DNA from: Tabrizicola flagellatus
Lineage (GTDB): Bacteria > Pseudomonadota > Alphaproteobacteria > Rhodobacterales > Rhodobacteraceae
DNA: 64,000 nt
Reading direction: 5' to 3'
NCBI RefSeq assembly: GCF_008271465.1
Contig: NZ_VMDU01000002.1
Location: 1 to 64,000, forward strand
Position 1 is the stretch's first letter, and each line of letters begins with the position of its first letter. The notes under the pieces are model-generated. The model made no database searches, had not been told where the DNA came from, and saw nothing but the letters and a program-made list of their open reading frames with translations. Position numbers and translations under genes: made by a program. This document shows positions 2,106 to 24,464 of this stretch, piece after piece.

Positions 2106-3311
2106 TTAGCGGAACAGAGACAGGAGACCCTGCGGCTGCTGGTTGGCGATCGAGAGGGCCTGGGTCGCCAGCTGCTGCTGCACTTGCAGCGCCTGCAGCC
2201 TGGCCGAGGCTTCCTCCATGTCGGTGTCGACCATGACGCCGATGCCGGTCTTGAGAGAGTCGGTGAGGTTGCTGACGAACTCGTTCTGGATGTCGATGCG
2301 CTTCTGCGACGAGCCGAAGGCGGCAGCCGCGTCGATCGAGGTCTGCAACATGCCCTCGATTGCATTGAGCGCGTTGGCCGGCTGGTTCACGACGTCGATC
2401 GTGTTCAGGCCGGCAAGGCCGCCGGTTCCCCGGGTGGTCCCGACGCTGATCGCCACGGATTGGTTGGTGTTGTTGGCAACCGTCAACGCCCCGGTGCCAA
2501 GGGTCAGGGTGAAGTCGCTGTCGGACAGGCCGTTCTGGGTCATCGCGTTCTTGAGCCCGGATACGAGCGAGTCGGCAGTGTCACCTTGCTGCACGATGTA
2601 GCTGCCAGAGACGGAGCCGATATTCAGCGTGATCTTGTCCCCGGCGATGATGCCGGTGAGGTTGCCGGGTGTTGCGGTCGGAGCATCGGCTGCAAGCGCC
2701 CCGGCCCCGCCCTGAAGGGTGAAGCCGTTCAGCGTGACCGGGGATCCGGTCACCACGTTTGCGGCCGACAAGGTTCCACCGCCCGCGGTCAACGCCGCGC
2801 CGGCATTGGTGGAGAGGTTCTGCGCCTGGACCGTGATGTTCGACGAGGTGACACCCGACTGGCTGCGGTCAAGCGAGGCCAGGACGTTCACCGAGGTCTG
2901 CGAACCGTCTACAAGGTTCAGACCATTGAATTGAGCGGCGCCCACGACCGACTCGATCTGGTCGGTCAGGGCATCGATATCGGCCTGGATCTTGGAGCGA
3001 TCGACGTTTTCAGCCTGGGCGGCGACGATCTTGCCCTTCATCTCGGTCAGAAGCTTCGTGACCGATTCTGAAGCGTTACGGGCGACGGTCAGCGTGGCCG
3101 AGCCGACGGAGAGGCTGTCCGAAATGCCCTTGAACCCCTCCACATCGGACTCCATCACCTTGGAGATTGCCCACACCGCGGCATTGTCCTTGGCGGTGGC
3201 AACCGATTTGCCGGTCGAGATGTCGGCTTGGGTCTTGTTCAGGTTGGCGTTGATGCCCTTCATCGTCTGCAGGGCGACCATCGCACTGGTATTGGTCAGG
3301 ATCGACGACAT
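2106..3311 (-). CDS. fliC: Flagellin
   Basis: A 401-residue filament subunit. The conserved D0/D1 N-terminus (SSILTNTSAMVALQTMKGINANL, then STGKSVATAKDNAA) and C-terminus (VDTDMEEASARLQALQVQQQLATQALSIANQ...LLSLFR) are both present, with a variable Thr/Ala/Gly-rich middle at about residues 140-310. Unlike most flagellins it has WAISKVMESDVEGF instead of an alternating LAIS repeat, as in other Rhodobacterales. The start is supported by GAAGGA seven bases upstream. It is the first gene of the flaF-flbT operon and has a structured leader, which suits FlbT control. Confidence 0.95.
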   Translation of the reverse strand: MSSILTNTSAMVALQTMKGINANLNKTQADISTGKSVATAKDNAAVWAISKVMESDVEGFKGISDSLSVGSATLTVARNASESVTKLLTEMKGKIVAAQAENVDRSKIQADIDALTDQIESVVGAAQFNGLNLVDGSQTSVNVLASLDRSQSGVTSSNITVQAQNLSTNAGAALTAGGGTLSAANVVTGSPVTLNGFTLQGGAGALAADAPTATPGNLTGIIAGDKITLNIGSVSGSYIVQQGDTADSLVSGLKNAMTQNGLSDSDFTLTLGTGALTVANNTNQSVAISVGTTRGTGGLAGLNTIDVVNQPANALNAIEGMLQTSIDAAAAFGSSQKRIDIQNEFVSNLTDSLKTGIGVMVDTDMEEASARLQALQVQQQLATQALSIANQQPQGLLSLFR

Positions 3312-3539: not shown

Positions 3540-5171
3540 TCAGGCCTTGGGAGCCGACTCGGACCGTAACTGGAACCGCTGGATCTTGCCGGTCTGCGTC
3601 TTGGGCAGGGCCTGGGTGAAGATCACGCTTCGCGGATACTTGAACGGGGCGATGACCCGTTTCACATGGTCCTGCAAGAGCTTGACCATCAGGGCATCGC
3701 CCTGATGACCCGGTGCGAGCACGACATGTGCCTCGACAATCTGCCCTCGCTCCGGGTCCGGGGCACCGACGACGGCACACTCCAGCACCGCCGGATGTTG
3801 CAACAGCGCCGCCTCGACCTCGGGACCGGCAATGTTGTAGCCGGCCGACAGGATCATGTCGTCGGTGCGGGCGGCAAAGTGGAAATAGCCGTCCTCGTCC
3901 TGCCAGAAGGCGTCGCCGGTCAGGTTCCAGCCGTCGCGCACATAGGCGCGCTGGCGCGAGTCGGCGAGATAGCGGCATCCGGTGGGGCCACGGACGGCAA
4001 GCCGACCGACCTCTCCCCGGGGCTTCTCGACCATCGCGTCATCCACGATCCGAGCCTCGTATCCCGTGACGGGCTTTCCGGTGCAGCCGGGGCGGTGATC
4101 GTCGAAGCGGTTATTGATGAAGATGTGCAGCATTTCGGTTGCGCCGATGCCGTCCAGCATCGGCTTGCCGGTCTTGGCGCGCCATTCTTCATGGACTGGC
4201 GCGGGCAGCGTCTCGCCCGCCGAGACAGCCGCCCGGAGCGAGGAGAGGTCGGCGCCTTCGTCCATCGCCTTCAGCATCACGCGGTAGGCGGTCGGCGCGG
4301 TGAAACAGATCGTCGCGCGGTGCTCCTCGATCATCGCCACCATGTTCGGCGGCGAGGCCTGTTCCAGAAGCGCGGCCGAAGCGCCGAAACGCAGGGGAAA
4401 GACCGCAAGCCCGCCGAGGCCGAAGGTGAAGGCGAGCGGCGGGCTGCCGATGAACACGTCGTCGGGCGTGACGCCGAGCACCTCGCGGGCGTAGCCGTCG
4501 GCAATGATCAGGAGGTCGCGGTGGAAGTGCATAGTGGCCTTCGGCTCGCCCGTGGTGCCCGAGGTGAAGCCCAGAAGCGCCACGTCGTCGCGGCCGGTGC
4601 GGACCGCCTCGAACCGCACGGGTTTCTTCAGCGCATGGCGGTCGAGTTCGGCATCATGGTTGGCGGTGCCGTCGAAGCCGATCACCGTCTTCAGGAACCG
4701 GCTGCCCTTGGCACAGAGGACCAGCTCCTCCATCAGCCGGGTGTCGCAGAGGGCGTGGCTGATCTCGGCCTTGTCCACGATCTTTGCCAGTTCTCCGGCC
4801 CGCAGCATCGGCATGGTGTTCACCACCACCGCCCCGGCCTTGGTCGCCGCCAGCCAACAGGCCACCATCGCCGGGTTGTTTGCCGAGCGGATCAGCACCC
4901 GGTTGCCGGGCCTGACCCCGTAGTCCTCGATCAGGACATGGGCGATGCGGTTGGTCCAGTCGGTCAGTTCCTTGTAGGTGCGGCTGCGGCCATTGCCGAT
5001 CAGGGCGACGTGATCGCCGAAGCCCTTCTCGACCATGCGGTCGGTCAGTTCGACCGCGACGTTCAGGAACTCCGGGTAGTCGAAGCCGGTCAGATCAATC
5101 CGGGGCCATTCCTCTGCCGGCGGCAGCCGGTCGCGGGTGAAGCTGTCGAGATGTCCGGTCGGTCCAAGCAT
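3540..5171 (-). CDS. Aromatic acid-CoA ligase, probably 2-aminobenzoate-CoA ligase
   Basis: A 543-residue cytoplasmic ANL-superfamily ligase that activates an aromatic carboxylate with ATP and CoA. It carries the AMP-binding signature FTSGTTGEPKATMHFH at about 206-221, the motif GIGATEMLHIF, the hinge region GYFHFAARTDDMILSAGYNI and the catalytic C-terminal Lys in KTQTGKIQRFQLR. The sequence type is that of benzoate/2-aminobenzoate-CoA ligases (AbmG-like in Azoarcus). It is the last gene of the eight-gene minus-strand operon, and the neighbouring aromatic-CoA monooxygenase half favours 2-aminobenzoate; salicylate or another ortho-substituted benzoate cannot be excluded. AAAGGAG precedes the start. 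Confidence 0.82.
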   Translation of the reverse strand: MLGPTGHLDSFTRDRLPPAEEWPRIDLTGFDYPEFLNVAVELTDRMVEKGFGDHVALIGNGRSRTYKELTDWTNRIAHVLIEDYGVRPGNRVLIRSANNPAMVACWLAATKAGAVVVNTMPMLRAGELAKIVDKAEISHALCDTRLMEELVLCAKGSRFLKTVIGFDGTANHDAELDRHALKKPVRFEAVRTGRDDVALLGFTSGTTGEPKATMHFHRDLLIIADGYAREVLGVTPDDVFIGSPPLAFTFGLGGLAVFPLRFGASAALLEQASPPNMVAMIEEHRATICFTAPTAYRVMLKAMDEGADLSSLRAAVSAGETLPAPVHEEWRAKTGKPMLDGIGATEMLHIFINNRFDDHRPGCTGKPVTGYEARIVDDAMVEKPRGEVGRLAVRGPTGCRYLADSRQRAYVRDGWNLTGDAFWQDEDGYFHFAARTDDMILSAGYNIAGPEVEAALLQHPAVLECAVVGAPDPERGQIVEAHVVLAPGHQGDALMVKLLQDHVKRVIAPFKYPRSVIFTQALPKTQTGKIQRFQLRSESAPKA

Positions 5172-5216: not shown

Positions 5217-5615
5217 TCAGTCGGGAACGATCGCGGTGGCCTCGATCTCGACCTTGGCGCGGTCCTCGATCAGGGCGACGACCTGGACCACGGCCATGGC
5301 CGGGTAGTGGCGACCGATGATCTCGCGGTAGATCCGGCCCAGCGCCTTGGGGTCGGCGAGGTATTCGGTCTTGTCGGTGATGTACCAGGTCAGACGGACC
5401 AGATGCTCGGGCCCGGCGCCGGCCTCGGCAAGGACGGCGACGACATTGCGCAGGGTCTGTTCGACCTGGCCGAGGAAATCGTCGGTCTCGAACTGGCAGT
5501 CCGCGTTCCAGCCGATCAGCCCGCCGGTCAGGACCATGCGCCCGCGCGCCGTGACCCCGTTGGCGTAGCCCTTCGCCGGCTTCCAGCCGGGCGGGTGCAG
5601 GAGGGTGATGCTCAT
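5217..5615 (-). CDS. RidA-family protein lacking the usual catalytic Arg
   Basis: A 132-residue RidA/YjgF-fold protein. Canonical RidA deaminates reactive enamines/imines and uses an Arg in the P-A-R-S-C-V-E motif. Here the matching segment is YPAMAVVQV, so Met107 takes the place of that Arg, while the later VEIEATAIV strand is intact. The protein therefore belongs to a divergent Rid subgroup. In aminobenzoyl-CoA pathways a Rid protein could help remove the amino nitrogen after dearomatisation; that role is inference. It overlaps the thioesterase gene by four bases and precedes the ligase by 45 nt. Confidence 0.8.
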   Translation of the reverse strand: MSITLLHPPGWKPAKGYANGVTARGRMVLTGGLIGWNADCQFETDDFLGQVEQTLRNVVAVLAEAGAGPEHLVRLTWYITDKTEYLADPKALGRIYREIIGRHYPAMAVVQVVALIEDRAKVEIEATAIVPD

Positions 5616-6019
5616 GCTGTCTCCATGAAGGCTGCGATGCGGCCGCGCACATCCTGCGGCCAGGGCTGCGGGCGCCCGCTTTCGTTGATGTGGACCAGGG
5701 TCAGGCTGGAGGTCAGCCGGTGCTGTCCATCGCCATGGGCCTGCAGGGCAATGCCGACGGACGTGCGCCCCAGCCTGGTCACCGAAAGCCGCCAGTCGAG
5801 AAGGTCGTCCAGGCGAGAGGGGGCATGGAACACGGTCTCGACGGCGGCGGTCGGCACGCCGGTCCGGCTCGTCATCATCTGCCCGAAGGTCCGGCCCGCC
5901 ACGTCGCGAAAGAAGTTCTCGATGACCGAGTTCATCATCTCGAAATAGCGCGGGTAAAAGACGATCCCGGCGGGATCGCAGTGGTTGAACTCGACGCGGA
6001 TGCTGCGGTGATAGGTCAT
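5612..6019 (-). CDS. Acyl-CoA thioesterase, 4-hydroxybenzoyl-CoA thioesterase type
   Basis: A 135-residue single hotdog-fold protein. The N-terminal motif FNHCDPAGIVFYPRYFEMMN contains the catalytic Asp15 of the 4-HBT family. It probably hydrolyses stalled aromatic or intermediate CoA thioesters to recycle CoA, a common safety function in aerobic CoA-dependent aromatic pathways. It sits between the acyl-CoA dehydrogenase and RidA genes with a four-base overlap to RidA. The exact substrate cannot be read from sequence. Confidence 0.82.
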   Translation of the reverse strand: MTYHRSIRVEFNHCDPAGIVFYPRYFEMMNSVIENFFRDVAGRTFGQMMTSRTGVPTAAVETVFHAPSRLDDLLDWRLSVTRLGRTSVGIALQAHGDGQHRLTSSLTLVHINESGRPQPWPQDVRGRIAAFMETA

Positions 6020-6023
6020 GCCG

Positions 6024-7172
6024 TCACGCTCCCAGAAGGCTGCGGGCGATCACGACGCGCTGCACGTCGCTGGCGCCCTCATAGATGCGCAGGGCGCGGA
6101 TCTCGCGGTAGAGTTCCTCGACCTTGACGCCGTGCCGCACCCCGTCACCGCCATGCAGCTGCACGGCCATGTCGATGACCTCCTGCGCGGCCTCGGTGGC
6201 ATACAGTTTGGCCATGGCGGCCTCGCGGCTGATCCGGGCGGCACCCTGATCCTTGGCCCAGGCGGCGCGATAGACGAGAAGCGCCGCGGCATCCAGTTTC
6301 AGCGCCATGTCGGCAAGATGCCCCTGCACCATCTGGAGCGCAGAGAGCGCCTCGCCCTGGATCCGTCGTGAGGTCACGCGGGACAGGGCCTCTTGCAGCG
6401 CGCGCCGGCCAAGGCCCAGCGCGGCGGCCCCGACCGTGGGGCGGAAGACATCCAGCACCGACATGGCCAACTTGAAGCCCTCGCCCGGGCGGCCGATCAG
6501 GGCCTCGTCGGGCAGATCCACGTCGGAAAGGTGCAGGGTGGCAAGCGGATGCGGCGCCATGACCTCGATCCGCTCGACCACGGAGAGGCCCGGTACGTCG
6601 GCGGGCATCAGGAAGGCAGACAGGCCGCGTGCGCCGGGTGCCTCGCCGGTACGGGCGAAGATCACATGGATGTCGGCGATGCCGCCGTTCGAGATGTAGG
6701 TCTTGGACCCGTTCAGACGCCAGCCGCCCTGGACCCGTTCCGCGATCGTCGCGGTTGCGGCGACGTCGGACCCTGACCCCGGCTCGGTCAACGCGAAGGC
6801 GGCAATGGCGGTGCCCGTGCGGGTCCGGTCCAGCCAGGCACGCTGGTCTGCCGTGCCGAACAGCGAGACCGCGCCCATGCCCAGACCCTGCATGGCAAAG
6901 GCGAAGTCGGCCAGCGCGTCGTGGTGGGCCAACGTCTCGCGGATCAGGCAGAGCGTGCGGACGTCCAGCCGCTCGCCCTCCGCCGCCCCGGTGTGACGCA
7001 GCCAGCCACCCGCGCCCAGCTGCGCGACCAGCGCCTTGCAGGCGGCGTCCACATCGTCATGCGCCACGGGCAGATGGGTGGCGCACCAGTCCTCCAACCG
7101 GGCGGCCAGATCGCGGTGGTGCGGCTCGAAGAAGGGCCAGTCGAGAAAGCTGCGGTCAACGGATCCGGCCAT
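6024..7172 (-). CDS. Acyl-CoA dehydrogenase
   Basis: A 382-residue FAD-dependent acyl-CoA dehydrogenase of normal length. It has [18 protein letters not shown] and [17 protein letters not shown] (FAD/substrate region, about 127-165), the [36 protein letters not shown]-terminal signature and the likely catalytic Glu in YEGASD. It would oxidise a ring-derived or ring-cleaved CoA thioester. It lies four bases from both neighbours in the operon. The substrate is unknown. Confidence 0.87.
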
Positions 7173-7176
7173 CGGT

Positions 7177-8004
7177 TCAATCCCCTCCGAACACGGGCTT
7201 TTCCTTCGCCACGAAGGCCCGGTAGGCCCGTTCGAAGTCCTTCGTCTGCATGCAGATCGCCTGGGCCTGTGCTTCGGCCTCGATCGCCTGGTCCAGACCC
7301 ATGTTCCATTCCTGGTTCAGCTGGGTCTTGGTGATGCCATGGGCAAAGGTCGGCCCCGCCGCCAGTTGCCGGGCCAGGGACATCGCGGCCTCCTCCAGCG
7401 CCTCGGGGGCGTGCAGCGCGTTCCAGAAGCCCCAGGCATGGCCTTCTTCGGCCCGCATCGTGCGCCCGGTATAAAGAAGCTCTGCCGCCCGTCCCTGCCC
7501 GATGATGCGCGGCAGCATGGCGCAGGCGCCCATGTCGCAGCCGGCCAGCCCGACACGGGTGAACAGGAAGGCGCATTTCGCATCCGGCGTTGCCAGCCGC
7601 AGGTCCGAGGCCATGGCCAGGATCGCCCCAGCCCCCACCGCCACTCCGTCCACCGCCGCGATGACCGGTTTGCCGCAGCCGATCATCGCCTTGACCAGAT
7701 CCCCGGTCATCCGGGTGAAGGCCAGCAGGTCCTTCATCTCCATCCCGATCAGCGGGCCGATGATGTCATGCACGTCGCCGCCGGAACAGAAGTTGCCGCC
7801 GTTCGAGGCCAGCACCACCACAGCCACATCTGTTGCATAGGGCAGGGCCCGGAAAAGGTCGCGCAGTTCGGCATAGCTGTCGAAGGTCAGCGGGTTCTTC
7901 CGGTCCGGGCGGTTCAGCCGGATGGTGCCGATCCGGTCGCGGACCTGCCACAGGAAATGCGCGAGCTTCAGATTGGAAAGCTCGGTGCGGGTCAGCTGAC
8001 TCAT
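7177..8004 (-). CDS. Enoyl-CoA hydratase/isomerase family protein
   Basis: A 275-residue crotonase-fold protein. The oxyanion-hole segments [13 protein letters not shown] and [21 protein letters not shown] are present. In the position where classical hydratases carry GLxPxxGGTQRL it has [20 protein letters not shown], a pattern seen in crotonases of aromatic-CoA pathways and not in fatty-acid hydratases. It may act on a cyclic CoA intermediate, for example in ring opening. It overlaps marR upstream by four bases. Confidence 0.85.
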
Positions 8005-8432
8005 CGCTTCGTCGCCCTTTTCAGGATTTCGGTCAGCGCGTCCACATCGGCGTCGCTGAGGGTGGAGAAGATCCGGGCCACTTCGGCCTCATGCTCGCGG
8101 GCTAGCGTCTCGAAATGCGCCAGACCTTCGGCCGTGAGCGATACGAGCACGGTGCGCCGGTCGCTTTCCGACGGGTGCCGGACGACCAGACCGTCCGCCT
8201 CCAGCCGGTCCACCACCGCAGTCACGTTGCCGTTCGAGACCAGGAGCATCCGGCTCAACTCGCTCATGCTGCAGGGCTCGCGCCGGCGATAGAGCGTGGC
8301 CATCACGTCGAAGCGGGGCAGGGTGGAGCCATGCCGCACGCGCAGGAACTCGCGCAGTTCGGCCTCGGCCGAGCGGGTGACGGAGAGAAGCCGGATCCAC
8401 AGCTTCAGGCGGCGCTTGGTCCCCTCGCTCAT
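8001..8432 (-). CDS. MarR-family transcriptional regulator of the aromatic-CoA cluster
   Basis: A 143-residue winged-helix MarR protein. The wing region is clear: [49 protein letters not shown]. MarR proteins in aromatic-CoA clusters usually repress the operon and let go when they bind the aromatic-CoA ester. The 29-bp palindrome at 10329-10357 between the divergent operons is the probable operator. The Met at 8432 gives the proper N-terminus and an ATGA overlap with the SDR stop. Confidence 0.9.
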
Positions 8433-9181
8433 GCCTCTCCTCCCGAGATGGCGATGGCCTGCCCGTTGATCCCCTCGGCCCCCGCGCTGCAAAGCCAGAG
8501 CGCGGCCGACGTCACCTCGGCCGGCCGGATCAGTCGGCGCTGCGGGTTGTGGGCGGCGAGCGTCTGCCGCGCGGCCTCGGCGCTCATGCCGGTCTTCTGC
8601 ATGATGGTATCGACCGAACGATCCGTCATCTCGGTGTCGAGAAACCCGGGGCAGAGCGCGTTGACCGTGACGGGCTTGCGCGCCACTTCCAGCGCGAGCG
8701 ACCGCACCAGTCCCACCACGCCATGCTTGGCGGCAGCGTAAGGCGCGACATAGGGATAGCCCTTCAACCCGGCGGTCGAGGCGACGGCAATCAGCCGCCC
8801 CCAGTCGGCAATCTGGGCAAGACCCTCGCGGAAGGTCAGGAAGACGCCGGTCAGGTTGACCGCCAGCATCGCGTTCCAGTCCTGAAGCGTGGTCCTGCCG
8901 AAAGGTGCGCTGCTCGCCGCCCCGGCATTGGCGATCACCACGTCGCAGCGCCCCGCCTCGGCAAACAGCCGTTCCACCTGGATCTCGTCCGTCACATCGG
9001 CCAGAAGCACGCGCGCCCCGGTCGCCTCGGCCACGGCGCGCAGCGGTGCCTCGCGGCGGCCGCAGATCACCACCTCGGCTCCGGCCGCCGCGAAACCGCG
9101 CGCGAGGTCGGCCCCGACCCCGGTTCCGCCGCCGGTGATCAGGACGCGCCGGCAGCGCGGATCGAGCATGCCACCCGTCAT
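8429..9181 (-). CDS. SDR-family oxidoreductase
   Basis: A 250-residue classical short-chain dehydrogenase. It has TGGGTGVGADLARGF (nucleotide binding), DVT (adenine ring), NAGA and a catalytic Ser region VASTAGLKGYPYVAPYAAAKHGVVGL with Tyr and Lys in YAAAK. It lies directly after the monooxygenase (ATGA overlap), so the two are made in step. In known pathways the second half of the bifunctional monooxygenase does the NADPH-dependent ring reduction; here this SDR may take part in reduction instead, or act as a hydroxyacyl-CoA dehydrogenase in later steps. Both roles are inference. Confidence 0.85.
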   Translation of the reverse strand: MTGGMLDPRCRRVLITGGGTGVGADLARGFAAAGAEVVICGRREAPLRAVAEATGARVLLADVTDEIQVERLFAEAGRCDVVIANAGAASSAPFGRTTLQDWNAMLAVNLTGVFLTFREGLAQIADWGRLIAVASTAGLKGYPYVAPYAAAKHGVVGLVRSLALEVARKPVTVNALCPGFLDTEMTDRSVDTIMQKTGMSAEAARQTLAAHNPQRRLIRPAEVTSAALWLCSAGAEGINGQAIAISGGEA

Positions 9182-10281
9182 GCGCGGATCTCGTGGCTGA
9201 TCCGCTGCGAGCGGGTCAGCAGCGAATAGGCGAACTGGATCGGCGGCATGTCGAGATAACGCTCGACCTGCTCGAACCATTCCAGGCTGTTGCGCGCCGC
9301 CGATTGCAGGCGCAGCACTTCGAGCCGGCGTTCCTCCTGATAGCGGCGGAAGGCGTCTTCCATGCTGGGCTCGGAGTGCAGGTAATCGGCCAGCGCGATG
9401 GCGCTGTCGAAGGCCAGCCGCGTGCCCGAACCGATCGAAAAATGCCCGGTCGCCGCCGCGTCGCCCATCAGGACGACGTTCTCGTGGTACCACTTCTCGC
9501 AGATCACCCGCGGGAACTGGATCCAGACCGCCGAGCCGCGCAGGTGGGCGGCGTTCGACATCAGGTCATGCCCGCCGAGGTGACGTTCGAAAATCCTGCG
9601 GCAAGTCTCGACCGTCTCCTCCTTGGTCATCCCGGCAAAGCCGAAGCGGTCCCAGGTCTCGGGCAGGGTCTCGACGATGAAGGTCGCGGTGTTGTCGTCG
9701 AACTGGTAGACATGGGCCCAGACCCAACCATGTTCGGTCCTTTCGAAAATGAAGGTGAAGGCATCGTCGAACTTCTGGTGCGTGCCCAGCCAGACGAACT
9801 TGCAGCGGCGCACGTCGATATCGGGGCGGAAGGTGTCGCTGTATTCCTGCCGCACCAGGCTGTTGATCCCGTCGCAGCCGACCACGATGTCATAGTCCCG
9901 CCGATACTCCTCGGCCGACTTGAAGGTGGTCTCGAATTCAAGCTTCACGCCCAGCTCGCGCGCGCGGGCCTGCAACAGGATCAGCATCGCCTTGCGGCCG
10001 ATCCCGGCAAAGCCATGGCCGCCCGAAACGGTGCGCACGCCGTCGTGGACCACGGCGATATCGTCCCAATAGGCGAAGTTCGACCGTATCGCCTCGGTCG
10101 AGACAGGGTCGTTCTTCTGCATCCGGCTCAGGGCGTCCTCGGACAGGACCACTCCCCAGCCGAAGGTGTCATTCGCGCGGTTCCGTTCCAGCACGGTCAC
10201 GTCATGGGACGGATCGCGCAGCTTCATCGAGATCGCGAAATACAGACCGGCCGGCCCGCCGCCGAGGCAAAGTATCTTCAT
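9178..10281 (-). CDS. Flavin monooxygenase, free-standing N-terminal half of 2-aminobenzoyl-CoA monooxygenase/salicylyl-CoA 5-hydroxylase type
   Basis: A 367-residue FAD-dependent aromatic-CoA hydroxylase. It shows the Rossmann motif LGGGPAGLYFAI at the N-terminus, VLERNRANDTFGWGVVLSEDAL, the DG motif VVGCDGINSLVR and the GD motif LMGDAAATGHFSIGSGTRLAFDSAIALA. The family form is a protein of about 760 residues in which this half is followed by an old-yellow-enzyme-like half. Here the protein ends at PPIQFAYSLLTRSQRISHEIRA and the stop overlaps the SDR start by ATGA, so the second half is cleanly absent. It is the first gene of the minus-strand operon, 104 nt from the divergent hydratase gene. 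It probably hydroxylates the aromatic CoA ester at C5; ring reduction by the same protein is not possible. Confidence 0.85.
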   Translation of the reverse strand: MKILCLGGGPAGLYFAISMKLRDPSHDVTVLERNRANDTFGWGVVLSEDALSRMQKNDPVSTEAIRSNFAYWDDIAVVHDGVRTVSGGHGFAGIGRKAMLILLQARARELGVKLEFETTFKSAEEYRRDYDIVVGCDGINSLVRQEYSDTFRPDIDVRRCKFVWLGTHQKFDDAFTFIFERTEHGWVWAHVYQFDDNTATFIVETLPETWDRFGFAGMTKEETVETCRRIFERHLGGHDLMSNAAHLRGSAVWIQFPRVICEKWYHENVVLMGDAAATGHFSIGSGTRLAFDSAIALADYLHSEPSMEDAFRRYQEERRLEVLRLQSAARNSLEWFEQVERYLDMPPIQFAYSLLTRSQRISHEIRA

Positions 10282-10328
10282 CACCCGGTGCTCCTGTTTG
10301 CCCGCAAGTTTGGCAGGTCGGCCAGCAA

Positions 10329-10357
10329 TTTCAAGCTTAAAACTTTTATGCTTGAAA
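10329..10357. promoter_or_regulatory. 29-bp near-perfect palindrome, probable MarR operator
   Basis: Arms TTTCAAGC and GCTTGAAA are perfect. The 13-nt centre (TTAAAA-C-TTTTAT) continues the symmetry with one mismatch. It lies in the AT-rich 104-nt gap between the divergent monooxygenase and hydratase operons, 48 nt from one start and 29 nt from the other, so one bound protein could repress both. MarR operators of aromatic-CoA regulators are AT-rich palindromes of this kind. Confidence 0.72.
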
Positions 10358-10385
10358 ATCTCCGGACTTGTTCCATTCTGCGCCC

Positions 10386-11141
10386 ATGGACCACCTGCTG
10401 GAGATCGACGAAGGCGCATGGGTGCGGCTGGTGCTGAACCGGCCGGCCGCCCGGAATGCGCTGAACACCGCCCTGCTGGGCGATCTGGCGGCAGCCCTTC
10501 GGCGGCTTGCCGACGTGCCGGATTGCCGGGCGGTCCTGATCCAGGGCGCCGAGGGCAATTTCGCGGCCGGGGCCGACATCGCCGAGATCGAGACCCGCAC
10601 CACAGCCGATGCCGCGACCGATCCGCGCAAGGCGCATTGGGCGGCGATTCGCACCTTCCCGAAGCCACTTGTCGCCGCCATCGAGGGCTTTGCGCTGGGC
10701 GGCGGGCTGGAACTTGCCCTGATGGCGGATCTGATGGTGGTCGGGGATACGGCCCGGCTGGGCCTGCCCGAAACCAGCCTCGGGTTGATCCCAGGTGCCG
10801 GCGGCGGCCAGCGGCTTCTGTCCCGGATCGGCCCGGCTCGGGCGGCGCGGATGGTGCTGACCGGAGAGATCATCGACGCCGACACGGCCCATGCCTGGGG
10901 CATCGCCTCGCACCGAACGGCCGATGCCGTGGCCGAAGGCGCGGCCCTGACAGCACGGCTGGCCGAACGTGCGCCGCTGGCCTTGCGGGCGGCCAAGGCG
11001 GCGCTCGTTGCGGGGGCGGAGGCACACCTTGCCTTCGCCGAGGAGCGCGCGGGTTTCGAGGCGCTTCTGTCCTCGGCCGACAAGCAGGAAGGCATCCATG
11101 CCTTCCGCGCGCGTCGCAAACCCGACTTCCAGGGCAGGTGA
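10386..11141 (+). CDS. Enoyl-CoA hydratase
   Basis: A 251-residue crotonase of standard length. It has NFAAGADIAEIE and IEGFALGGGLELALMADLMV (oxyanion hole and first catalytic Glu) and ETSLGLIPGAGGGQRLLSRIG with the second catalytic Glu position, so it looks like a true beta-oxidation hydratase. The ATG at 10386 is preferred over an upstream TTG at 10368 because the family begins near MDHLLEIDEG. It is the first gene of the plus-strand operon hydratase - hydroxyacyl-CoA dehydrogenase - thiolase and completes beta-oxidation of the ring-cleavage product. Confidence 0.9.
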   Translation: MDHLLEIDEGAWVRLVLNRPAARNALNTALLGDLAAALRRLADVPDCRAVLIQGAEGNFAAGADIAEIETRTTADAATDPRKAHWAAIRTFPKPLVAAIEGFALGGGLELALMADLMVVGDTARLGLPETSLGLIPGAGGGQRLLSRIGPARAARMVLTGEIIDADTAHAWGIASHRTADAVAEGAALTARLAERAPLALRAAKAALVAGAEAHLAFAEERAGFEALLSSADKQEGIHAFRARRKPDFQGR

Positions 11142-11146
11142 GACGC

Positions 11147-12271
11147 ATGGAACCCGCAACCGTCGGTGTCGTCGGCCTTGGAACGATGGGGATCGGCATC
11201 GTGCAGGTCTTCGCGGCGGCCGGATACCGGGTGCTGGCGACCGACAGTCACGCACCTGCCCGCGACAGCGCCCTGGACCGGATTGCGGCCGCCCTGGCCT
11301 CGCGAGTCGCGGCCGGCAAGCTGACCGAGGCGGAGCGCGCCGAGACGCTTGCACGGGTCCAACTGGTCGAAAACCCCGGGCAGATGGGGGAGGCCGAGTT
11401 GGCCATCGAAGCGGTGGTCGAGGATCTGACAGCCAAGCAGGCGATCTTCGCGGCACTTGAACGGGTGATGGCGCCGGATGCCGTTCTGGCCAGCAACACC
11501 TCGTCGCTTTCGATTGCCGCGCTTGCGAAGGGTCTGGTCCGGCCCGAGCGGCTGCTCGGCCTGCATTTCTTCAACCCGGCCCCTGCGATGAGACTGGTCG
11601 AACTCGTCCCGCATTCCGGCACGTCCGACCCGGCGCTGCAGAAGGTCCGGGCCCTGATGCATCCTGCGGGCAAGACCCTGATCGACAGTCCAGATTGCCC
11701 CGGCTTCATCGTGAACCGCTGCGCGCGTCCGTTCTACGGCGAGGCGCTGGCCCTGCTGGAGGAGGGTCGCACTGCTACCGAGGTGGATGCGGCGATGCTG
11801 ACGGCGGGATACCGGATGGGTCCGTTCTCGCTGATCGACCTGGTCGGCGCCGACATCAACCTTGCCGCGACCGAGGGGCTCAACCGGGCCATGGGCGGGC
11901 ATCCGCGCTATCACGTCTTTGCGGCGTTGCGTGCGCAGGTCGCCAGCGGCAATCTCGGGCGCAAGACGGGCAGGGGCTTCGTCTTTCCCGATCCGCCGGC
12001 CTCCCCGCCGTCCGATGCCACCGCCATCGTCCTGCGGATCGAAGCAACGCTGGCGAACGAGGCGGGCTGGCTTCTGGCCGAGGGTGGCGTTCAGCGCGAG
12101 GGGATCGACACCGCGATGAAGCTTGGGCTGAACCTGCCGCGCGGACCCTTCGAATGCCTGCGCGCGCATGGCACCGCAACGATCCTCGCGGAACTGGAAC
12201 GCCTCGAGCGCCTGGCCCCTGCGCATCTGCGCGGGCGCTATCTGCCCGCACCGGAGCTTGATGCCGCATGA
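11147..12271 (+). CDS. 3-Hydroxyacyl-CoA dehydrogenase
   Basis: A 374-residue NAD-dependent 3-hydroxyacyl-CoA dehydrogenase. It has the Rossmann motif GLGTMGIGI at 10-18, the SNTSSLSI segment at 117-123 and the catalytic His140 in GLHFFNPAPAMRLVEL. The C-terminal dimerisation domain is present twice (about 185-275 and 290-370), the arrangement of the PaaH-like group used in phenylacetate and aromatic pathways. It oxidises the hydroxyacyl-CoA to a 3-oxoacyl-CoA for the thiolase, whose start overlaps its stop by four bases. Confidence 0.9.
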   Translation: MEPATVGVVGLGTMGIGIVQVFAAAGYRVLATDSHAPARDSALDRIAAALASRVAAGKLTEAERAETLARVQLVENPGQMGEAELAIEAVVEDLTAKQAIFAALERVMAPDAVLASNTSSLSIAALAKGLVRPERLLGLHFFNPAPAMRLVELVPHSGTSDPALQKVRALMHPAGKTLIDSPDCPGFIVNRCARPFYGEALALLEEGRTATEVDAAMLTAGYRMGPFSLIDLVGADINLAATEGLNRAMGGHPRYHVFAALRAQVASGNLGRKTGRGFVFPDPPASPPSDATAIVLRIEATLANEAGWLLAEGGVQREGIDTAMKLGLNLPRGPFECLRAHGTATILAELERLERLAPAHLRGRYLPAPELDAA

Positions 12272-13446
12272 CCCGAGACGTCTTCCTCTGCACCATGCGC
12301 CGCACGCCGATCGGCCGCTATGGTGGCGCCCTCGCCAGCCTGCGCCCGGACGACATGGCGGCCCTGGTGATCGACGGCCTTCTCGACCTCTGCCCCGACC
12401 TGCCGGTGGACGAGGTGATCTTCGGTTGCGCCAACCAGGCGGGCGAGGACAACCGGAATGTCGCGCGCATGGCCGTGCTCCTTTCCCGCCTGCCGGAAAC
12501 CGTGCCCGCACTGACCGTCAACCGGCTCTGTGCCTCGGGCATGGATGCGGTGATCGCCGGCGCGCGCGCGATCCGCGACGGGGCGGACATCGTCATTGCC
12601 GGCGGCGTCGAAAGCATGAGCCGCGCTCCTTTCGTGATGCCGAAGGCCGAAGCCGCCTTTTCCCGGCAGGCGGAGATTCACGACACCACGATCGGCTGGC
12701 GTTTCGTGAACCAGCGTATCGCAAGGCTATATGGCATCGAGTCCATGCCCGAAACCGCCGAGAACGTGGCGCAGGACTTTGCGGTCAGCCGCGCCGACCA
12801 GGACGGCTATGCGCTGCGCTCGCAACTGCGCTATGACGCGGCCTGGCATCGGTCCGACATCCTGCCGGTGACCCTCCGCACCCGGTCGGGCGACACGGTC
12901 GTCAGCGCGGACGAGCATCCGCGCGTCACCTCTGCGGACCGCCTCGCGGCACTGCCAACCCCGTTCCGGGACGGCGGGACGGTAACGGCGGGCAATGCCG
13001 CCGGTGTCAATGATGGCGCCGCCGCCGTGCTTCTGGCATCGGCTACGGGGTTGCAGAGGACGGGCCTCACGCCCCTGGCCCGCATCGGTCGCGCTGCCGC
13101 CGCCGGCGTAGCCCCAAGGATCATGGGTGTCGGCCCGGTTGCGGCGGTCGAACGGCTGGTGGCAGCGGGCGCCAGACCGCCCGCAGAGCAGGACGCAATC
13201 GAACTCAACGAGGCCTTTGCCGCCCAGGTGCTGGCCTGCACCCGCGCCTGGGGGCTGGACGACTCCGACCCGCGGCTGAACGCATATGGTGGCGGGATCA
13301 GCATGGGGCATCCGCTGGGGATGTCCGGCGCGCGCATTGTGGCAACGGCGGCGAGGCGTCTGGCGGAATCGAACGGCAGGTCTGCACTGGCAACGCTTTG
13401 CGTCGGGGTCGGTCAGGGCGTGGCTGTCGAGCTTCTGCCCGCCTGA
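12268..13446 (+). CDS. Acetyl-CoA acyltransferase, beta-ketoadipyl-CoA thiolase type
   Basis: A 392-residue thiolase. Nucleophile Cys88 lies in TVNRLCASGMDAV, followed by GGVESMSRAPFVMPK. Late motifs are NAYGGGISMGHPLGMSGARI (catalytic His) and TLCVGVGQGVAVELL (second Cys). It fits the PcaF/PaaJ group that splits 3-oxoadipyl-CoA or similar diacid CoA esters. It is the last gene of the plus-strand operon. Final products are expected to be acetyl-CoA plus a shorter CoA ester. Confidence 0.9.
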   Translation: MTRDVFLCTMRRTPIGRYGGALASLRPDDMAALVIDGLLDLCPDLPVDEVIFGCANQAGEDNRNVARMAVLLSRLPETVPALTVNRLCASGMDAVIAGARAIRDGADIVIAGGVESMSRAPFVMPKAEAAFSRQAEIHDTTIGWRFVNQRIARLYGIESMPETAENVAQDFAVSRADQDGYALRSQLRYDAAWHRSDILPVTLRTRSGDTVVSADEHPRVTSADRLAALPTPFRDGGTVTAGNAAGVNDGAAAVLLASATGLQRTGLTPLARIGRAAAAGVAPRIMGVGPVAAVERLVAAGARPPAEQDAIELNEAFAAQVLACTRAWGLDDSDPRLNAYGGGISMGHPLGMSGARIVATAARRLAESNGRSALATLCVGVGQGVAVELLPA

Positions 13447-14193: not shown

Positions 14194-15996
14194 ATGCAGA
14201 ACGCACTCATCATCGGGCCGATCGCAGTTTCCTTTACGGAAGCCGGGTTCATCCAAACCCGGCACGATGGCCAGGCATTTGCGGACAGCTTTTGCGAAAC
14301 TCTTGTCCACCCGGGCCCGACCGATCCGGAAACCGACAATTCCCTGCCCGCCCCCGGGGTGTTCTTCTGGAATGACGGCCTGCTTTCCACGGCCTTGCGG
14401 GATTGGACGCGCCCACACACGGATGCTCCTCGGGTTGCGTCAGACGCCGACCTGCCGTCCGCGCCGACGGCGCTTGCGGGCACCCTGTTGGCCATCGAAG
14501 CCCGGACAGGGCCCGATTGGGGAAGCGCGGATCCGGAGGCAACGCCTTCGGGTCACGGAACAGAGGCCGCCAGCGGCGCGCCAGAGGGGGAAGCGGCAAA
14601 CAGCCCAGTTCTGCTGCGGGCCACAGCCGGTGCAGTGCCGATCCGCGAGAGTCTGATCCCCCCTGGTGACCTCTACGCTGCCATCCCGATTCTCGAAGGA
14701 CGCGGGCACGCGCTTCTGTCATCCGAGACTGCGGCTCCGCTGTTTGCATCACTCGACAGGGCAGACGGTTTGCCGTCAACGCTCGCACTGGCCGAGATCG
14801 CCCCGGCCGGCGACAAGGCCGCCGATGGAGAAAGGTCTCTCCCCATGGTCGCTGACGACAGGCCACGAAGGGATGGACAAGCCACCGACCCGGTTGCCCT
14901 GCAGCGCTCTGAGACCGGAGCGATCAACCAGATCCGCCAGATGAACACCGGCCGGTCCGAAGAGATTGCCGCGGCCAGGCTGCCGACATCAGGGCTCGCG
15001 GTGGTCGAAGCGGAAGAGCATCACCCGGTTGCTGGCGCTTCGAACCAGCCGCCTGATCCCTGGGGGAAACAAGCCGCAGGACAGTCGGCCGCTCCGGGAG
15101 GCAGTCGGTCCGAACCGGACGTGGCCTTGCCGCGTTTCCCGGCGGAAACGGGAACCGGGCCGTCCTTCGACGCGAGGTCCGAGCCCGATGAACCCGCCTC
15201 ATCCCCTTCGGTTACGGGCAGTTTCTGGGAACGGGTTTTCCATGACGCAACCAAGGCGCAGGCCGCTGGCGCACAGCAGCCGTCTACGGACGGCGAGGCC
15301 ATCCCGTTGCCGGTCGCAACTTCTACGGCTCATGCGGCAGACAAGGATCAGACCGTTGCGTCCATTGCGCCCGCGCAAGTAGACAGTACATGGCCGCCGG
15401 ATCCGACCGAAATCGCTGGCCCTGCAACGCAAACCGCCGCGGTTTCGCAGGCCGACCTCGTTTCGCGGCTCGTGGTCGAAGCTTGGCCCGACCCGGGTTC
15501 CCTAACAGCGGCCACAACGGATGCGATAGCTGTATCCGGCGTGTCGGCACCGTCCTCGGGGCCAGCAAGTCAGGCCGCGGCGTCATCGCCCGTTTTCCTT
15601 CCGGTTCCGCAGGTGGCCACCCAGGTCGCTGCCGTCCTTCGCCGGACTGCCGGTGGCGCTGCGGAACTATCGCTTGCCCCGATCGAACTTGGCCGCGTCC
15701 GGCTGCGGATCGAGCCCGACGCGAGGGATCCAGACCGATTGCTGATCCTGATCAACGTCGAACGCCCCGAGACGCTGGAGCTTTTCCGACGCCATGCGGC
15801 CGAGCTCGCCGAGGCGATCCGAAGCGCGGGCTACGCGGGGTCCAGCATCGACTTCGGGCAACAAGGCCAGGGAAACCGGCGCGAAGCAGGACGCGATGAT
15901 CGGCCCAGCCTCGCCGCGCCGGAGTCCCGCGACATGGAGCGCGGGCAGCTTCCTTTCCGCAATGTCACCGGGGAAACCCTAGATCTCAGATTGTAA
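14194..15996 (+). CDS. fliK: Flagellar hook-length control protein FliK
   Basis: A 600-residue protein with a long, low-complexity Ala/Pro/Ser-rich N-terminal two thirds and a conserved Flg_hook domain near the C-terminus (about 490-570: GGAAELSLAPIELGRVRLRIEP, LFRRHAAELAEAIRSAGY). FliK measures hook length and switches export from hook to filament substrates. It is followed after seven bases by flgD, the hook cap gene, which supports the call. Confidence 0.88.
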   Translation: MQNALIIGPIAVSFTEAGFIQTRHDGQAFADSFCETLVHPGPTDPETDNSLPAPGVFFWNDGLLSTALRDWTRPHTDAPRVASDADLPSAPTALAGTLLAIEARTGPDWGSADPEATPSGHGTEAASGAPEGEAANSPVLLRATAGAVPIRESLIPPGDLYAAIPILEGRGHALLSSETAAPLFASLDRADGLPSTLALAEIAPAGDKAADGERSLPMVADDRPRRDGQATDPVALQRSETGAINQIRQMNTGRSEEIAAARLPTSGLAVVEAEEHHPVAGASNQPPDPWGKQAAGQSAAPGGSRSEPDVALPRFPAETGTGPSFDARSEPDEPASSPSVTGSFWERVFHDATKAQAAGAQQPSTDGEAIPLPVATSTAHAADKDQTVASIAPAQVDSTWPPDPTEIAGPATQTAAVSQADLVSRLVVEAWPDPGSLTAATTDAIAVSGVSAPSSGPASQAAASSPVFLPVPQVATQVAAVLRRTAGGAAELSLAPIELGRVRLRIEPDARDPDRLLILINVERPETLELFRRHAAELAEAIRSAGYAGSSIDFGQQGQGNRREAGRDDRPSLAAPESRDMERGQLPFRNVTGETLDLRL

Positions 15997-16003
15997 GGCT
16001 ACC

Positions 16004-16660
16004 ATGGACATCTCATCCGTCAGTTCCGCGACGACCGCAACGCAGGCACCCGCAGCGGCATCGAAGATCACTTCGGATTTCAATACGTTCTTGCGGATGC
16101 TCACGGTGCAGATGCAGAATCAGGACCCGCTGAAGCCGATCGACTCGGCTGACTACGCAGTTCAGCTGGCGACCTTTTCCGGGGTCGAGCAGCAGGTGCG
16201 CACCAATCAGCTGCTGGCCGACCTGCAAGGCCGGTTCCAGCAGCTGGGCATGGCCGAAATGGCCAGCTGGGTGGGCAAGGAGGCGCGGTCGGACGCACCG
16301 GTCCTTTACGAGGGCTCTCCGGTCACGTTGTCGCCGAATCCGGCAGTCGGGTCCGACCGCGCCGTGCTCGTGGTGCGGGACGAGGCCGGAAACCTGGTAT
16401 CGCGCGAGGAGATCCCGGTAAGCACCGAGCCCTATCAGTGGCTTGGTGCCGGCATGGACGGCGCACCCCTGCCGACCGGCATCTACTCGATCACTCTCGA
16501 AAGCATGAGGGGAGAGACCCGGATCGACGCCCGCCCGATCGAGCACTACGCCCTGGTGACGGAAGCCAAGGGAGGCAGCGCAGGAACGACCCTCGTCCTC
16601 CGCGGCGGGATCGAAGTCGCAGCAACTGATGTGACCGCACTGCGAAACCCGAAAGGTTGA
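16004..16660 (+). CDS. flgD: Flagellar hook assembly protein FlgD
   Basis: A 218-residue hook-capping protein. The FlgD N-terminal hallmark is exact: FNTFLRMLTVQMQNQDPLKPIDSADYAVQLATFSGVEQQVRTN. The C-terminal half has the beta-rich FlgD Tudor/Ig-like region (WLGAGMDGAPLPTGIYSITLES). It caps the growing hook and lets FlgE subunits polymerise. It lies directly after fliK in one operon. The 159-nt gap that follows has no gene I can support. Confidence 0.95.
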   Translation: MDISSVSSATTATQAPAAASKITSDFNTFLRMLTVQMQNQDPLKPIDSADYAVQLATFSGVEQQVRTNQLLADLQGRFQQLGMAEMASWVGKEARSDAPVLYEGSPVTLSPNPAVGSDRAVLVVRDEAGNLVSREEIPVSTEPYQWLGAGMDGAPLPTGIYSITLESMRGETRIDARPIEHYALVTEAKGGSAGTTLVLRGGIEVAATDVTALRNPKG

Positions 16661-21627: not shown

Positions 21628-22386
21628 ATGCGCCTCGCCCTGCTGCAAGCCCCCTCTCCCTCGGGCGACCCGGATCTCGCCTGCGTACAGGCCGAAGCCG
21701 CCCTCGCCTCGGCCGCAGCCCTGGGCGCGGCCGCCCTTGTCCTGCCGGAGCTCTGGCTGCCCGGGTACAATCAGCCCGACATTCCGACCCGGGCCCTGAC
21801 CCTCGACGATCATCCCATGCAGCGCCTTGCCGCCGCCGCGAGGAACCGGGCAACGGCGCTGGTGGTGGGCTATGCCGAGCGTGACGGAGGCCGGACCTTC
21901 AACTCCGCCGCCTGCTTCGGGCCTGAGGGGTCGCTTCTCGTCAACTACCGGAAGATCCAGCTTTACGGCCCGCGCGAGCGCGCGCTGTTCGTGCCGGGTG
22001 ACGTCTATGTCACCTTCCGCCTCGGGGAAGCAACCGCCGCGATCCTGATCTGCTACGATGTGGAGTTCGCCCCCCATGTGAAGGCGCTGGCCGACCGGGG
22101 CGTGACCGTAATCCTGGCACCAACGGCCAACATGCAGCCCTACACCCATGTCGGGCACCACACCGTGCCCGCAATGGCCGCGAACCACGGAGTCTCCATC
22201 GTCTATGCCAACTACTGCGGCCAGGAGGGCGATCTGACCTATGTCGGTGGCAGCCTCATCGCCGGTCCGCATGGAGAGGTGCTGGCCCAAGCCGGCGGGC
22301 ATCCCGCGCTGCTGATCGCCGACATTCCGCCGCGCGATCCGGCCCGGCTGTCCACCCAGTCGGCCGACCTCAGGATTCTCCCATGA
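21628..22386 (+). CDS. Carbon-nitrogen hydrolase (nitrilase superfamily amidase)
   Basis: A 252-residue cytoplasmic amidohydrolase with the family's Glu-Lys-Cys triad: Glu in LVLPELWLPGYN, Lys in VNYRKIQLYGPRE and Cys in LICYDVEFAPHVKAL. Length fits single-domain amidases (omega-amidase, N-carbamoylputrescine or R-amidase types). It overlaps the flavoprotein gene by four bases and so works in the same pathway. It probably hydrolyses an amide, or carbamoyl-amine, of the imported compound. Confidence 0.85.
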   Translation: MRLALLQAPSPSGDPDLACVQAEAALASAAALGAAALVLPELWLPGYNQPDIPTRALTLDDHPMQRLAAAARNRATALVVGYAERDGGRTFNSAACFGPEGSLLVNYRKIQLYGPRERALFVPGDVYVTFRLGEATAAILICYDVEFAPHVKALADRGVTVILAPTANMQPYTHVGHHTVPAMAANHGVSIVYANYCGQEGDLTYVGGSLIAGPHGEVLAQAGGHPALLIADIPPRDPARLSTQSADLRILP

Positions 22387-24464
22387 CCCGCCTGCCCGCC
22401 CACGACATCCTGTTCACGCCGATGCAGATCGGCCCTAAGGTGGCGAAGAACCGGTTCTACCAGGTCCCGCATTGCAACGGCGGCGGCTATCGCGACCCCT
22501 CGGCTGTCGTGGAAATGCGCCGCACCAAGGCCGAGGGCGGCTGGGGCGTGATCTTCACCGAACAGACGGAAATCCACCCGACCTCCGAGATCACGCCCTT
22601 CATCGAACAGCACCTCTGGGACGACCGCGACATCCCGGCGCTCGCCCGTATGGCCGAGGCGATGAAATCCCATGGCGCGCTGGCCGGCATCCAGCTGGCC
22701 TATTCCGGGATCAACGGCCCGAACCTCTATTCGCGCGAGGTGCCGCTGGCGGTGACCGGGGGGCCGATCCTGACCTTCACCGCCGATCCGGTGCAGGCCC
22801 GCACCATGGACCGCGAGGATATCCGCGACCTCCGCCGCTGGTTCCGCAACGCCTTCCGTCGCAGCCAGCAGGCGGGCTTCGACCTGATCTGCCTCTACGG
22901 TGCGCATAGCTTCGGGATCCTGCAACATTTCCTGTCGCGGGCGACCAACCACAGGACGGACGAATACGGCGGCAGTCTGGAGAACCGTGGCCGCTTCCTG
23001 CGCGAAATCGTCGAGGACCTGCGTGAGGTCACCAGGGGCGAGTTGGCCGTCACCTTGCGCATGTCGCTGCACGAGGCCGGGGCCTACGGCTTCTCGAATG
23101 CCGAACTCCGCGACTTCATCGCCATGCACGCCGAGCTGCCCGACCTCTGGGACCTGGCCCAGGGCACCTGGGAGGCCTGCTCGGGCACCTCTCGCTTCAA
23201 GGCCGAAGGCGCGCAGGAGGAACTGGTCAAGGGGATCAAGGTCCTGACGCCCAAGCCCATCGTCGGGGTGGGGCGCTTCACCTCGCCCGATGCGATGGTG
23301 CGACAGATCCGGGCGGGGATCCTGGATTTCATCGGCGCGGCCAGACCCTCGATCGCCGATCCGTTCCTGCCCCTCAAGGTCGAGGAGGGCCGCTACGAGG
23401 ACATCCGGGAATGCATCGGCTGCAACATCTGCGTCTCGGGCGACATGACGGGCGGCATCAGCCGCTGCACGCAGAACACCGCCTTCATGGAGGAATGGCG
23501 CAAGGGCTGGCACCCCGACCGCGCCCGACCCAAGGGTGCATCCGAAAGCGTTCTGGTCGTCGGGGCGGGGCCGGCCGGACTCGAGGCCGCCCTGCAGGCC
23601 GGCAGGCGGGGCTACCGGGTTACTCTGGCCGAGGCCGGCACCAGGCTCGGCGGCCGTGTGGCGAAGGAACGAATGCTTCCGGGCCTCTCCGCCTGGGGTC
23701 GCGTCGCTGACTACCGCACTGGCCAGATGGCCGTGATGCCGAACGTCGAGATCTACCGCGACAGCCCCCTCACGCCCGAGGACATCGTGGCCATGGGTGC
23801 GGATCACGTCGCCATCGCCACCGGCGCCACCTGGCGGCGGGACGCGGTGGCGCGCTTCCACCTGCACCCGATCCCGACCGATCCGGCCATGCCGATCTTC
23901 ACCCCAGACGACCTGATGGCGGGCCGCTGTCCCGAGGGCCTGAGCGTCGCGGTCTATGACGACGATCACTTCTACATGGGCTCCGTCCTCGCCGAGCTTC
24001 TGGTGGCCAAGGGGAATCGCGTGCACTTTGTCACCCCGGCAGTGAAGGTTGCCGAGTGGACGGACAACACGCTGGAACAGGGCAGCATCATGCGCCGCCT
24101 GCTGGAGATCGGCGTCGAGATGCATCTGAGCAAGGCACCGGAGGCGATCGGCAAGGACGAGGTGATCCTCGGCTGCACCTGGACCGGCCGCCAGACTGCG
24201 CTGCCGGTCGAAGCCGTGGTGCTGGTGACCTCGCGCAGTCCGGAGGACGGGCTTTTCCACGCGACCCGGGCGCTGGACTGGCAAGGCGCAGGCATCCGCA
24301 GCCTGAAAGTCATCGGCGATGCGGCGGCTCCGGGTCCGATCGCCTGGGCGACCTATGCCGGCCGGGCCTGGGCCGAATCCCTCGACCAGCCGGATCGCGG
24401 CGATGCCCTGCCTTTCCGGCGCGAGATCGCCGAACTTCTGCCCGACGACCGGATCACACCCTGA
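22383..24464 (+). CDS. Trimethylamine-dehydrogenase-like iron-sulfur flavoprotein (N-methyl amine or N-methyl amino acid dehydrogenase)
   Basis: A 693-residue protein with an N-terminal old-yellow-enzyme-type FMN barrel (1-340), a 4Fe-4S cluster set by Cys344, Cys347, Cys350 and Cys362, and a C-terminal FAD/NAD-type domain starting at VLVVGAGPAGLEAALQAG. It keeps a Cys (C31 in FYQVPHCNGGG) at the place of the covalent 6-S-cysteinyl-FMN link of trimethylamine dehydrogenase, and Tyr172/His175 of its catalytic YGAH motif. Of the aromatic cage that holds trimethylammonium, only one Trp (W263) appears kept; Gln61 replaces the Tyr, as in dimethylamine dehydrogenase, and the third position is not aromatic. 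A demethylase for an N-methylated amine or amino acid is likely, trimethylamine itself unlikely. Confidence 0.85.
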   Translation: MTRLPAHDILFTPMQIGPKVAKNRFYQVPHCNGGGYRDPSAVVEMRRTKAEGGWGVIFTEQTEIHPTSEITPFIEQHLWDDRDIPALARMAEAMKSHGALAGIQLAYSGINGPNLYSREVPLAVTGGPILTFTADPVQARTMDREDIRDLRRWFRNAFRRSQQAGFDLICLYGAHSFGILQHFLSRATNHRTDEYGGSLENRGRFLREIVEDLREVTRGELAVTLRMSLHEAGAYGFSNAELRDFIAMHAELPDLWDLAQGTWEACSGTSRFKAEGAQEELVKGIKVLTPKPIVGVGRFTSPDAMVRQIRAGILDFIGAARPSIADPFLPLKVEEGRYEDIRECIGCNICVSGDMTGGISRCTQNTAFMEEWRKGWHPDRARPKGASESVLVVGAGPAGLEAALQAGRRGYRVTLAEAGTRLGGRVAKERMLPGLSAWGRVADYRTGQMAVMPNVEIYRDSPLTPEDIVAMGADHVAIATGATWRRDAVARFHLHPIPTDPAMPIFTPDDLMAGRCPEGLSVAVYDDDHFYMGSVLAELLVAKGNRVHFVTPAVKVAEWTDNTLEQGSIMRRLLEIGVEMHLSKAPEAIGKDEVILGCTWTGRQTALPVEAVVLVTSRSPEDGLFHATRALDWQGAGIRSLKVIGDAAAPGPIAWATYAGRAWAESLDQPDRGDALPFRREIAELLPDDRITP

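Follow-up and report, generated by a model that had tools for sequence, protein, structure and literature searches.

The first 64,000 bases of contig NZ_VMDU01000002.1 of Tabrizicola flagellatus, the whole stretch analysed here and called the window below, include a catabolic operon in which a normally fused aryl-CoA monooxygenase/reductase is represented by its hydroxylase half. What was found is a domain deletion, specific to this lineage, in an enzyme already known, and it is viewed most simply as the recent loss of a ring-reducing step. A recent in-frame deletion has probably abolished ring reduction, leaving a hydroxylase that would be expected to yield an aromatic 5-hydroxy-aryl-CoA. Judged by sequence, a stretch is deleted relative to the relatives, no replacement for the missing half was found in the genome, the neighbouring genes are intact and constraint is not relaxed; we infer the substrate, the product, the lost pathway flux and the recency of the deletion. 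A plain loss-of-function deletion, which did not figure among the inferences of an earlier reading of the same DNA (the first-pass annotation), fits the data best.

The short gene and its operon

The short gene lies on the minus strand, its ATG starting at position 10281 and its TGA ending at position 9178, and its 367-residue product has the C-terminal letters ...LLTRSQRISHEIRA. The coordinates and length agree with the first-pass annotation, in which the strand had been left unstated. The best NCBIfam model for the protein is PRK08255 ('bifunctional salicylyl-CoA 5-hydroxylase/oxidoreductase'), matched with 583 bits over model positions 1-367 of 768; the N-terminal FAD monooxygenase half is present (27 sequences align over 367 columns), and the score stays below the curated cut-off of 1078 bits for the whole protein. 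In Pfam the short protein gives FAD_binding_3 alone, without a C-terminal old-yellow-enzyme (OYE; Oxidored_FMN) half, and the corresponding protein of the nearest relative, Rhodobacter calidifons M37P (locus L076), gives both the FAD monooxygenase and the OYE domain. The earlier proposal that the gene encodes just the first half of an enzyme that is normally bifunctional is confirmed by this partial match and by the fused OYE half carried by relatives. The protein had also been described as ending in TRSQRISHE at the domain boundary; the boundary is right, most OYE structures aligning with the nearest relative from residue 389-395 onward (best 60 of 139 matches), but TRSQRISHE does not form the last residues, IRA coming after it. 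The overlap with the next gene, of the SDR family, is as originally reported, the SDR start overlapping the monooxygenase stop as ATGA.

With its 367 residues and a predicted VioD-like fold, the short protein has the form of a single-domain hydroxylase. The structure model has a mean pLDDT of 77.6 and its best PDB matches are 8gqr, 8h0m and 3c4a; it was built on a shallow alignment of 27 close sequences, and pLDDT drops below 50 in several stretches, among them the nine C-terminal residues. No second hydroxylase copy was found in the genome.

The neighbouring genes (Table 1) match those found in relatives, with the aryl-CoA ligase, acyl-CoA dehydrogenase, enoyl-CoA hydratase and SDR all present, and the earlier impression of an otherwise complete operon holds. 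On one side of the operon stands a gene that we take to be flagellin-like (window 2106-3311), and on the other side are what are presumably FliK/FlgD-like genes (14194-16660).

Table 1. Positions of the short gene, its junction, the operon genes and a distant dioxygenase; long loci are those with 13,000 bases or more, 54 in number
Feature	Position	Strand	Basis and occurrence
Benzoate-CoA-ligase-like aryl-CoA ligase	3540..5171	-	TIGR02262 361.5 bits, just below cut-off 375.25; 42/54 long loci, counted with same strand and side required and with the available flank often ending inside the ligase
Protein, presumably RidA-like	5217..5615	-	Translation; 50/54 long loci
4HBT-type acyl-CoA thioesterase	5612..6019	-	Pfam 4HBT_2; 45/54 long loci
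Acyl-CoA dehydrogenase	6024..7172	-	Pfam Acyl-CoA_dh_1/M; 54/54 long loci
Enoyl-CoA hydratase family protein PRK08258	7177..8004	-	NCBIfam 481 bits, above cut-off 330; 54/54 long loci
MarR-family regulator	8001..8432	-	Pfam MarR; same place in 53/54 long loci; in the other it lies upstream of the enzyme gene
SDR-family oxidoreductase, ATGA overlap with monooxygenase gene	8429..9181	-	Pfam adh_short_C2; after the OYE half in 53/54 long loci
Putative FAD monooxygenase half of 2-aminobenzoyl-CoA monooxygenase/reductase, PRK08255 family, without OYE half	9178..10281	-	NCBIfam and structure search
Deletion junction CACGAGATCCGCGCATGA, HE fused to native C-terminal IRA-stop	9178..9195	-	Comparison with relatives, 11 loci
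Divergent enoyl-CoA hydratase, PaaF-like	10389..11141	+	Best NCBIfam PRK09674 245 bits, below cut-off 371; 23/54 long loci
3-Hydroxyacyl-CoA dehydrogenase	11147..12271	+	Pfam 3HCDH_N and 3HCDH; 38/54 long loci
PcaF-like thiolase	12268..13446	+	PRK09050 542 bits, below cut-off 605; divergent in 15/54 long loci
Gentisate/5-aminosalicylate-type cupin dioxygenase	C2:306141-307259 of this genome (L157:8142-9263)		NCBIfam, below both cut-offs

The deletion junction and the rarity of the short form

At the DNA level the junction in the window reads CACGAG-ATCCGCGCATGA. In all 20 full-length same-genus loci, 1182 bp (394 codons) separate the ...SHE or GHE that ends the LTRSQRI-HE motif from the last three codons, and because these same two points touch here, the short gene is, on this sequence comparison, a derived deletion and not an ancestral short form. 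Since HE joins directly onto IRA-stop in the window, the IRA of the short protein is the C-terminus of the full-length enzyme; it is the commonest ending of full-length enzymes, found in 41 of the 78 named loci with the stop in view, and the ATGA overlap with the next gene recurs in 71 of the same 78. The constancy of exactly 1182 bp applies at genus level, the wider named set varying slightly: the distance from HE to the stop is 397 codons (394 + 3) in 51/78 named loci and 393-402 in the remainder.

An ancestral short form was rejected, the 26 aligned named relatives, whose hydroxylase halves are 83-94% identical to the short protein, all being fused. Acquisition of a foreign short gene was rejected as well, as synteny with R. 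calidifons M37P runs on through both flanks; DNA identity to this relative is 85.0% and 82.5% beside the gene and 78% farther away. If L052 is taken as the parent, about 2 bp (GA) at the junction are common to both parent ends.

The deletion also took, at 9182-9200, a GAGGTG-like ribosome-binding sequence that is found before the SDR start in many relatives. Among the 71 relatives with the ATGA overlap, scored against a consensus word of our own, 39 match at 6-8 bases and 22 at only 4; in this genome, too, only 4 bases match (GATC). Translation of the SDR gene may now lean on coupling.

An assembly or sequencing artefact, by which the draft contig would have lost an OYE half that the organism does have, might be suspected from a short form seen in one genome only and a draft assembly of 42 contigs. 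The junction, however, is seamless, in frame and inside a 570-kb contig, and no stray second half was found on the other contigs. The longest word common to both breakpoint regions, in the two relatives checked, is 8-9 bp, a short overlap for an assembler to join on. An artefact is therefore considered unlikely.

The first-pass annotation had called for a survey of how many relatives keep the short form, and within the genus (32 genomes) none was found besides the gene described here. Twenty of these genomes have the full-length enzyme, one has it split by contig ends (G411), one is the T. flagellatus genome with the short gene, and the ten counted as without it are those, several of the genomes being incomplete, with no hydroxylase half among the matches listed. 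Over the whole PRK08255 model the bifunctional enzymes of the genus reach 1216-1293 bits. At family level 188 of 394 genomes match PRK08255 at E <= 1e-100, 135 of them above the cut-off; among the matches listed, which reach down to about 438 bits (weaker stand-alone forms would fall below), the sole other match to the N-terminal half only is in G379, and it reaches base 5 of its contig.

Surveys of the class (385 genomes) and phylum (398 genomes) at E <= 1e-120 gave, among the matches listed, four other contig-internal matches confined to the N-terminal half (G629, G718, G795 and G852, with 404-420 bits); in three of the four a single stop is flagged within the match. Two further class-level cases, G430 and G714, are broken by contig ends. 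The four contig-internal hydroxylases have 39-41% identity to the short gene. Two of them were read: both are stand-alone, with 377 and 387 aa, and one adjoins an aryl-CoA ligase.

In a collection of named loci (80 kept of at least 591 candidate stretches, T. flagellatus records possibly left out) the hydroxylase half is followed, contiguously and in frame, by the OYE half in 80/80. A survey of reading frames at 149 loci, with some genomes counted twice, found 128 full-length genes, three shorter ones (the short gene and two broken by contig ends) and 18 loci with none, the gene there being either lacking or missed by the search pattern.

Constraint on the remaining half and the expected chemistry

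No relaxed constraint on the hydroxylase half was seen in branch estimates by a simple Nei-Gojobori count (three-point, with L067 from R. calidifons and L070 from another relative for comparison; some dS values near 1), its own-branch dN/dS being about 0.07 compared with 0.09 on the sister branch. Across 11 operon genes, own-branch dN/dS is below that of the sister branch in 10 and equal in one, and pathway decay is unsupported. Had the hydroxylase half gone neutral, it would have done so for at most about 3-7% of its own branch, depending on the assumed constraint and computed from rounded dN/dS inputs. Of the sites that >=95% of 114 relatives conserve, the short protein differs at one and the median sequence at none; 91 of the 115 sequences differ at no more than one. 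The short protein has six rare residues, five of them within residues 113-148, a range chosen after the fact; they could hint at adjustment after the loss of the partner domain, and were not used as evidence. Since the hydroxylase half shows no decay, it has either lost its partner recently or remained in use, and the data fit retained function as well as recency.

The ancestor would have had a normal fused 2-aminobenzoyl-CoA (anthraniloyl-CoA) monooxygenase/reductase, from which this lineage would have lost the entire OYE reductase half in one in-frame deletion of 1182 bp, with breakpoints directly behind the HE of the conserved motif HENLR and at the last three codons, so that the native stop and the overlap with the SDR gene survived. 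The remaining protein should still fold as a FAD hydroxylase, and would be expected to carry out aryl-CoA 5-hydroxylation. Because the OYE half is gone, an aromatic 5-hydroxy product would be released in place of the reduced cyclohexenone; most likely this would cut off ring reduction together with the beta-oxidation-like steps that follow it, leaving the rest of the operon without substrate. When NADH runs short, the native enzyme reportedly forms 5-hydroxyanthraniloyl-CoA (PMC3534580, citing Langkau et al. 1990).

What counts against random inactivation is the unusual neatness of the deletion: it is in frame, both of its ends fall at domain limits and the coupling to the SDR gene is retained, a combination that such an event would rarely produce. 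The tidiness is discounted somewhat, because it was itself what drew notice. No description of this short form was found in the paper listings searched and a few passages, a scope outside which most subscription papers lie.

Related enzymes and other routes for the hydroxylated ring

In its hydroxylase half the short protein is like the 2-aminobenzoyl-CoA monooxygenase/reductase of Azoarcus evansii (PRK08255) and other bifunctional enzymes of this family, and the operon partners are alike, the identity quoted above having been measured on the 26 named relatives and not on the Azoarcus sequence; it differs in lacking the OYE half (394 codons) that all 80 named loci have. It resembles the stand-alone aryl-CoA 5-hydroxylases, such as the salicylyl-CoA 5-hydroxylase of Streptomyces WA46 (presumably the gene product SdgC) and TomO, in hydroxylating, as expected, without a fused reductase, and SdgC and TomO are both single-domain. 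Its closest relatives are nevertheless bifunctional, and because the stand-alone relatives seen are only about 40% identical (SdgC and TomO being known by description only), the short gene is set apart from that group and is, by sequence, a truncated fused enzyme. VioD, the violacein pathway hydroxylase, has the same fold by sequence and structure search (26-29% identity in the latter), but does not belong to a CoA-ester pathway. TomO is described as the hydroxylase of tomaymycin in PMC5875774.

A side observation from the class and phylum surveys is locus L158 (G629 C28), where positions 7639-10561 contain a 377-aa hydroxylase that stands alone, is of the kind of the PRK08255 N-terminal half and adjoins a benzoate-CoA ligase above its family cut-off. 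From the sequence this appears to be a natural pair of single-domain aryl-CoA hydroxylase and ligase.

If the deletion is real, the T. flagellatus gene would be a natural construct of the hydroxylase half alone inside an otherwise intact operon, and could show directly if the hydroxylase depends on the reductase partner and which product it releases alone. This question has so far been approached via NADH limitation (PMC3534580). A caution also follows, as such an operon can pass for a complete anthranilate-CoA pathway though the committing step is missing.

The first-pass annotation also allowed for a variant route that passes through a hydroxylated aromatic CoA and skips ring reduction. In such a route the short enzyme might act as a stand-alone aryl-CoA 5-hydroxylase, with a thioesterase freeing the 5-hydroxy acid and a gentisate/5-aminosalicylate-type dioxygenase opening the ring. 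The strong constraint on the hydroxylase half, the thioesterase in the operon and the existence of stand-alone relatives at about 40% identity, one adjoining an aryl-CoA ligase, are all in keeping with this, and the genome has a cupin dioxygenase (304 bits to gentisate 1,2-dioxygenase, 282 bits to 5-aminosalicylate 1,2-dioxygenase) that adjoins a fumarylacetoacetate-hydrolase-like gene. Comparable routes are described for Streptomyces WA46, from salicylyl-CoA through gentisyl-CoA to gentisate (PMC4600096), and for Nocardia opaca, where anthranilate is degraded via 5-hydroxyanthranilate and gentisate (PMC4539516). However, the dioxygenase falls short of the cut-offs of both families, 442 and 650 bits, and lies about 296 kb from the short gene, and the genes dependent on ring reduction are likewise intact.

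Nor does the dioxygenase track the deletion. It is matched in five of the 32 genus genomes (one partial); G401, G407 and G408 carry it yet keep the full-length fused enzyme, and the sister genome G191 gave no match, so that it is unlike a response to the deletion and was dropped as a compensating gain. Such a use of the short enzyme is accordingly rated quite unlikely, and there is equally little likelihood that a dearomatising anthraniloyl-CoA enzyme has become a selected stand-alone hydroxylase, the ring-reducing route being turned into a hydroxylating one that ends in gentisate-type cleavage. Clustered with the dioxygenase are the FAH-family-like hydrolase, one nitrilase-like gene and two genes that gave no NCBIfam match at 1e-20.

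The loss of ring reduction, the preferred reading, would be undone if another enzyme, the SDR or a FadH-like OYE enzyme of the genome, reduced the hydroxylated ring in trans, but this is very improbable: the SDR gene does overlap the short gene and the genome does have five OYE-family genes, but the SDR stands beside intact OYE halves in 53/54 long loci, and OYE genes of similar score occur in same-genus genomes with the intact fused enzyme. Because the SDR follows the OYE half in those loci, its overlap is uninformative on replacement, and the earlier suggestion that the coupled SDR serves as the reductase was rejected. Another earlier suggestion, a reductase half encoded elsewhere, likewise found no support when the genome was searched. 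No stand-alone OYE half of the PRK08255 type was found there, other contigs included, and the five OYE-family genes encode FadH-like two-domain proteins (658-700 aa, each FMN-OYE plus Pyr_redox) that match FadH/OYE-type models below those models' cut-offs and reach about 175 bits at best against the OYE part of PRK08255.

An FMN-OYE/Pyr_redox enzyme of this two-domain kind (Pfam) is encoded in the window at 22383-24464 on the plus strand. Its neighbours are presumably a spermidine/putrescine-type ABC transporter and a nitrilase-like gene, and the region looks like one of amine catabolism, unrelated to the catabolic operon.
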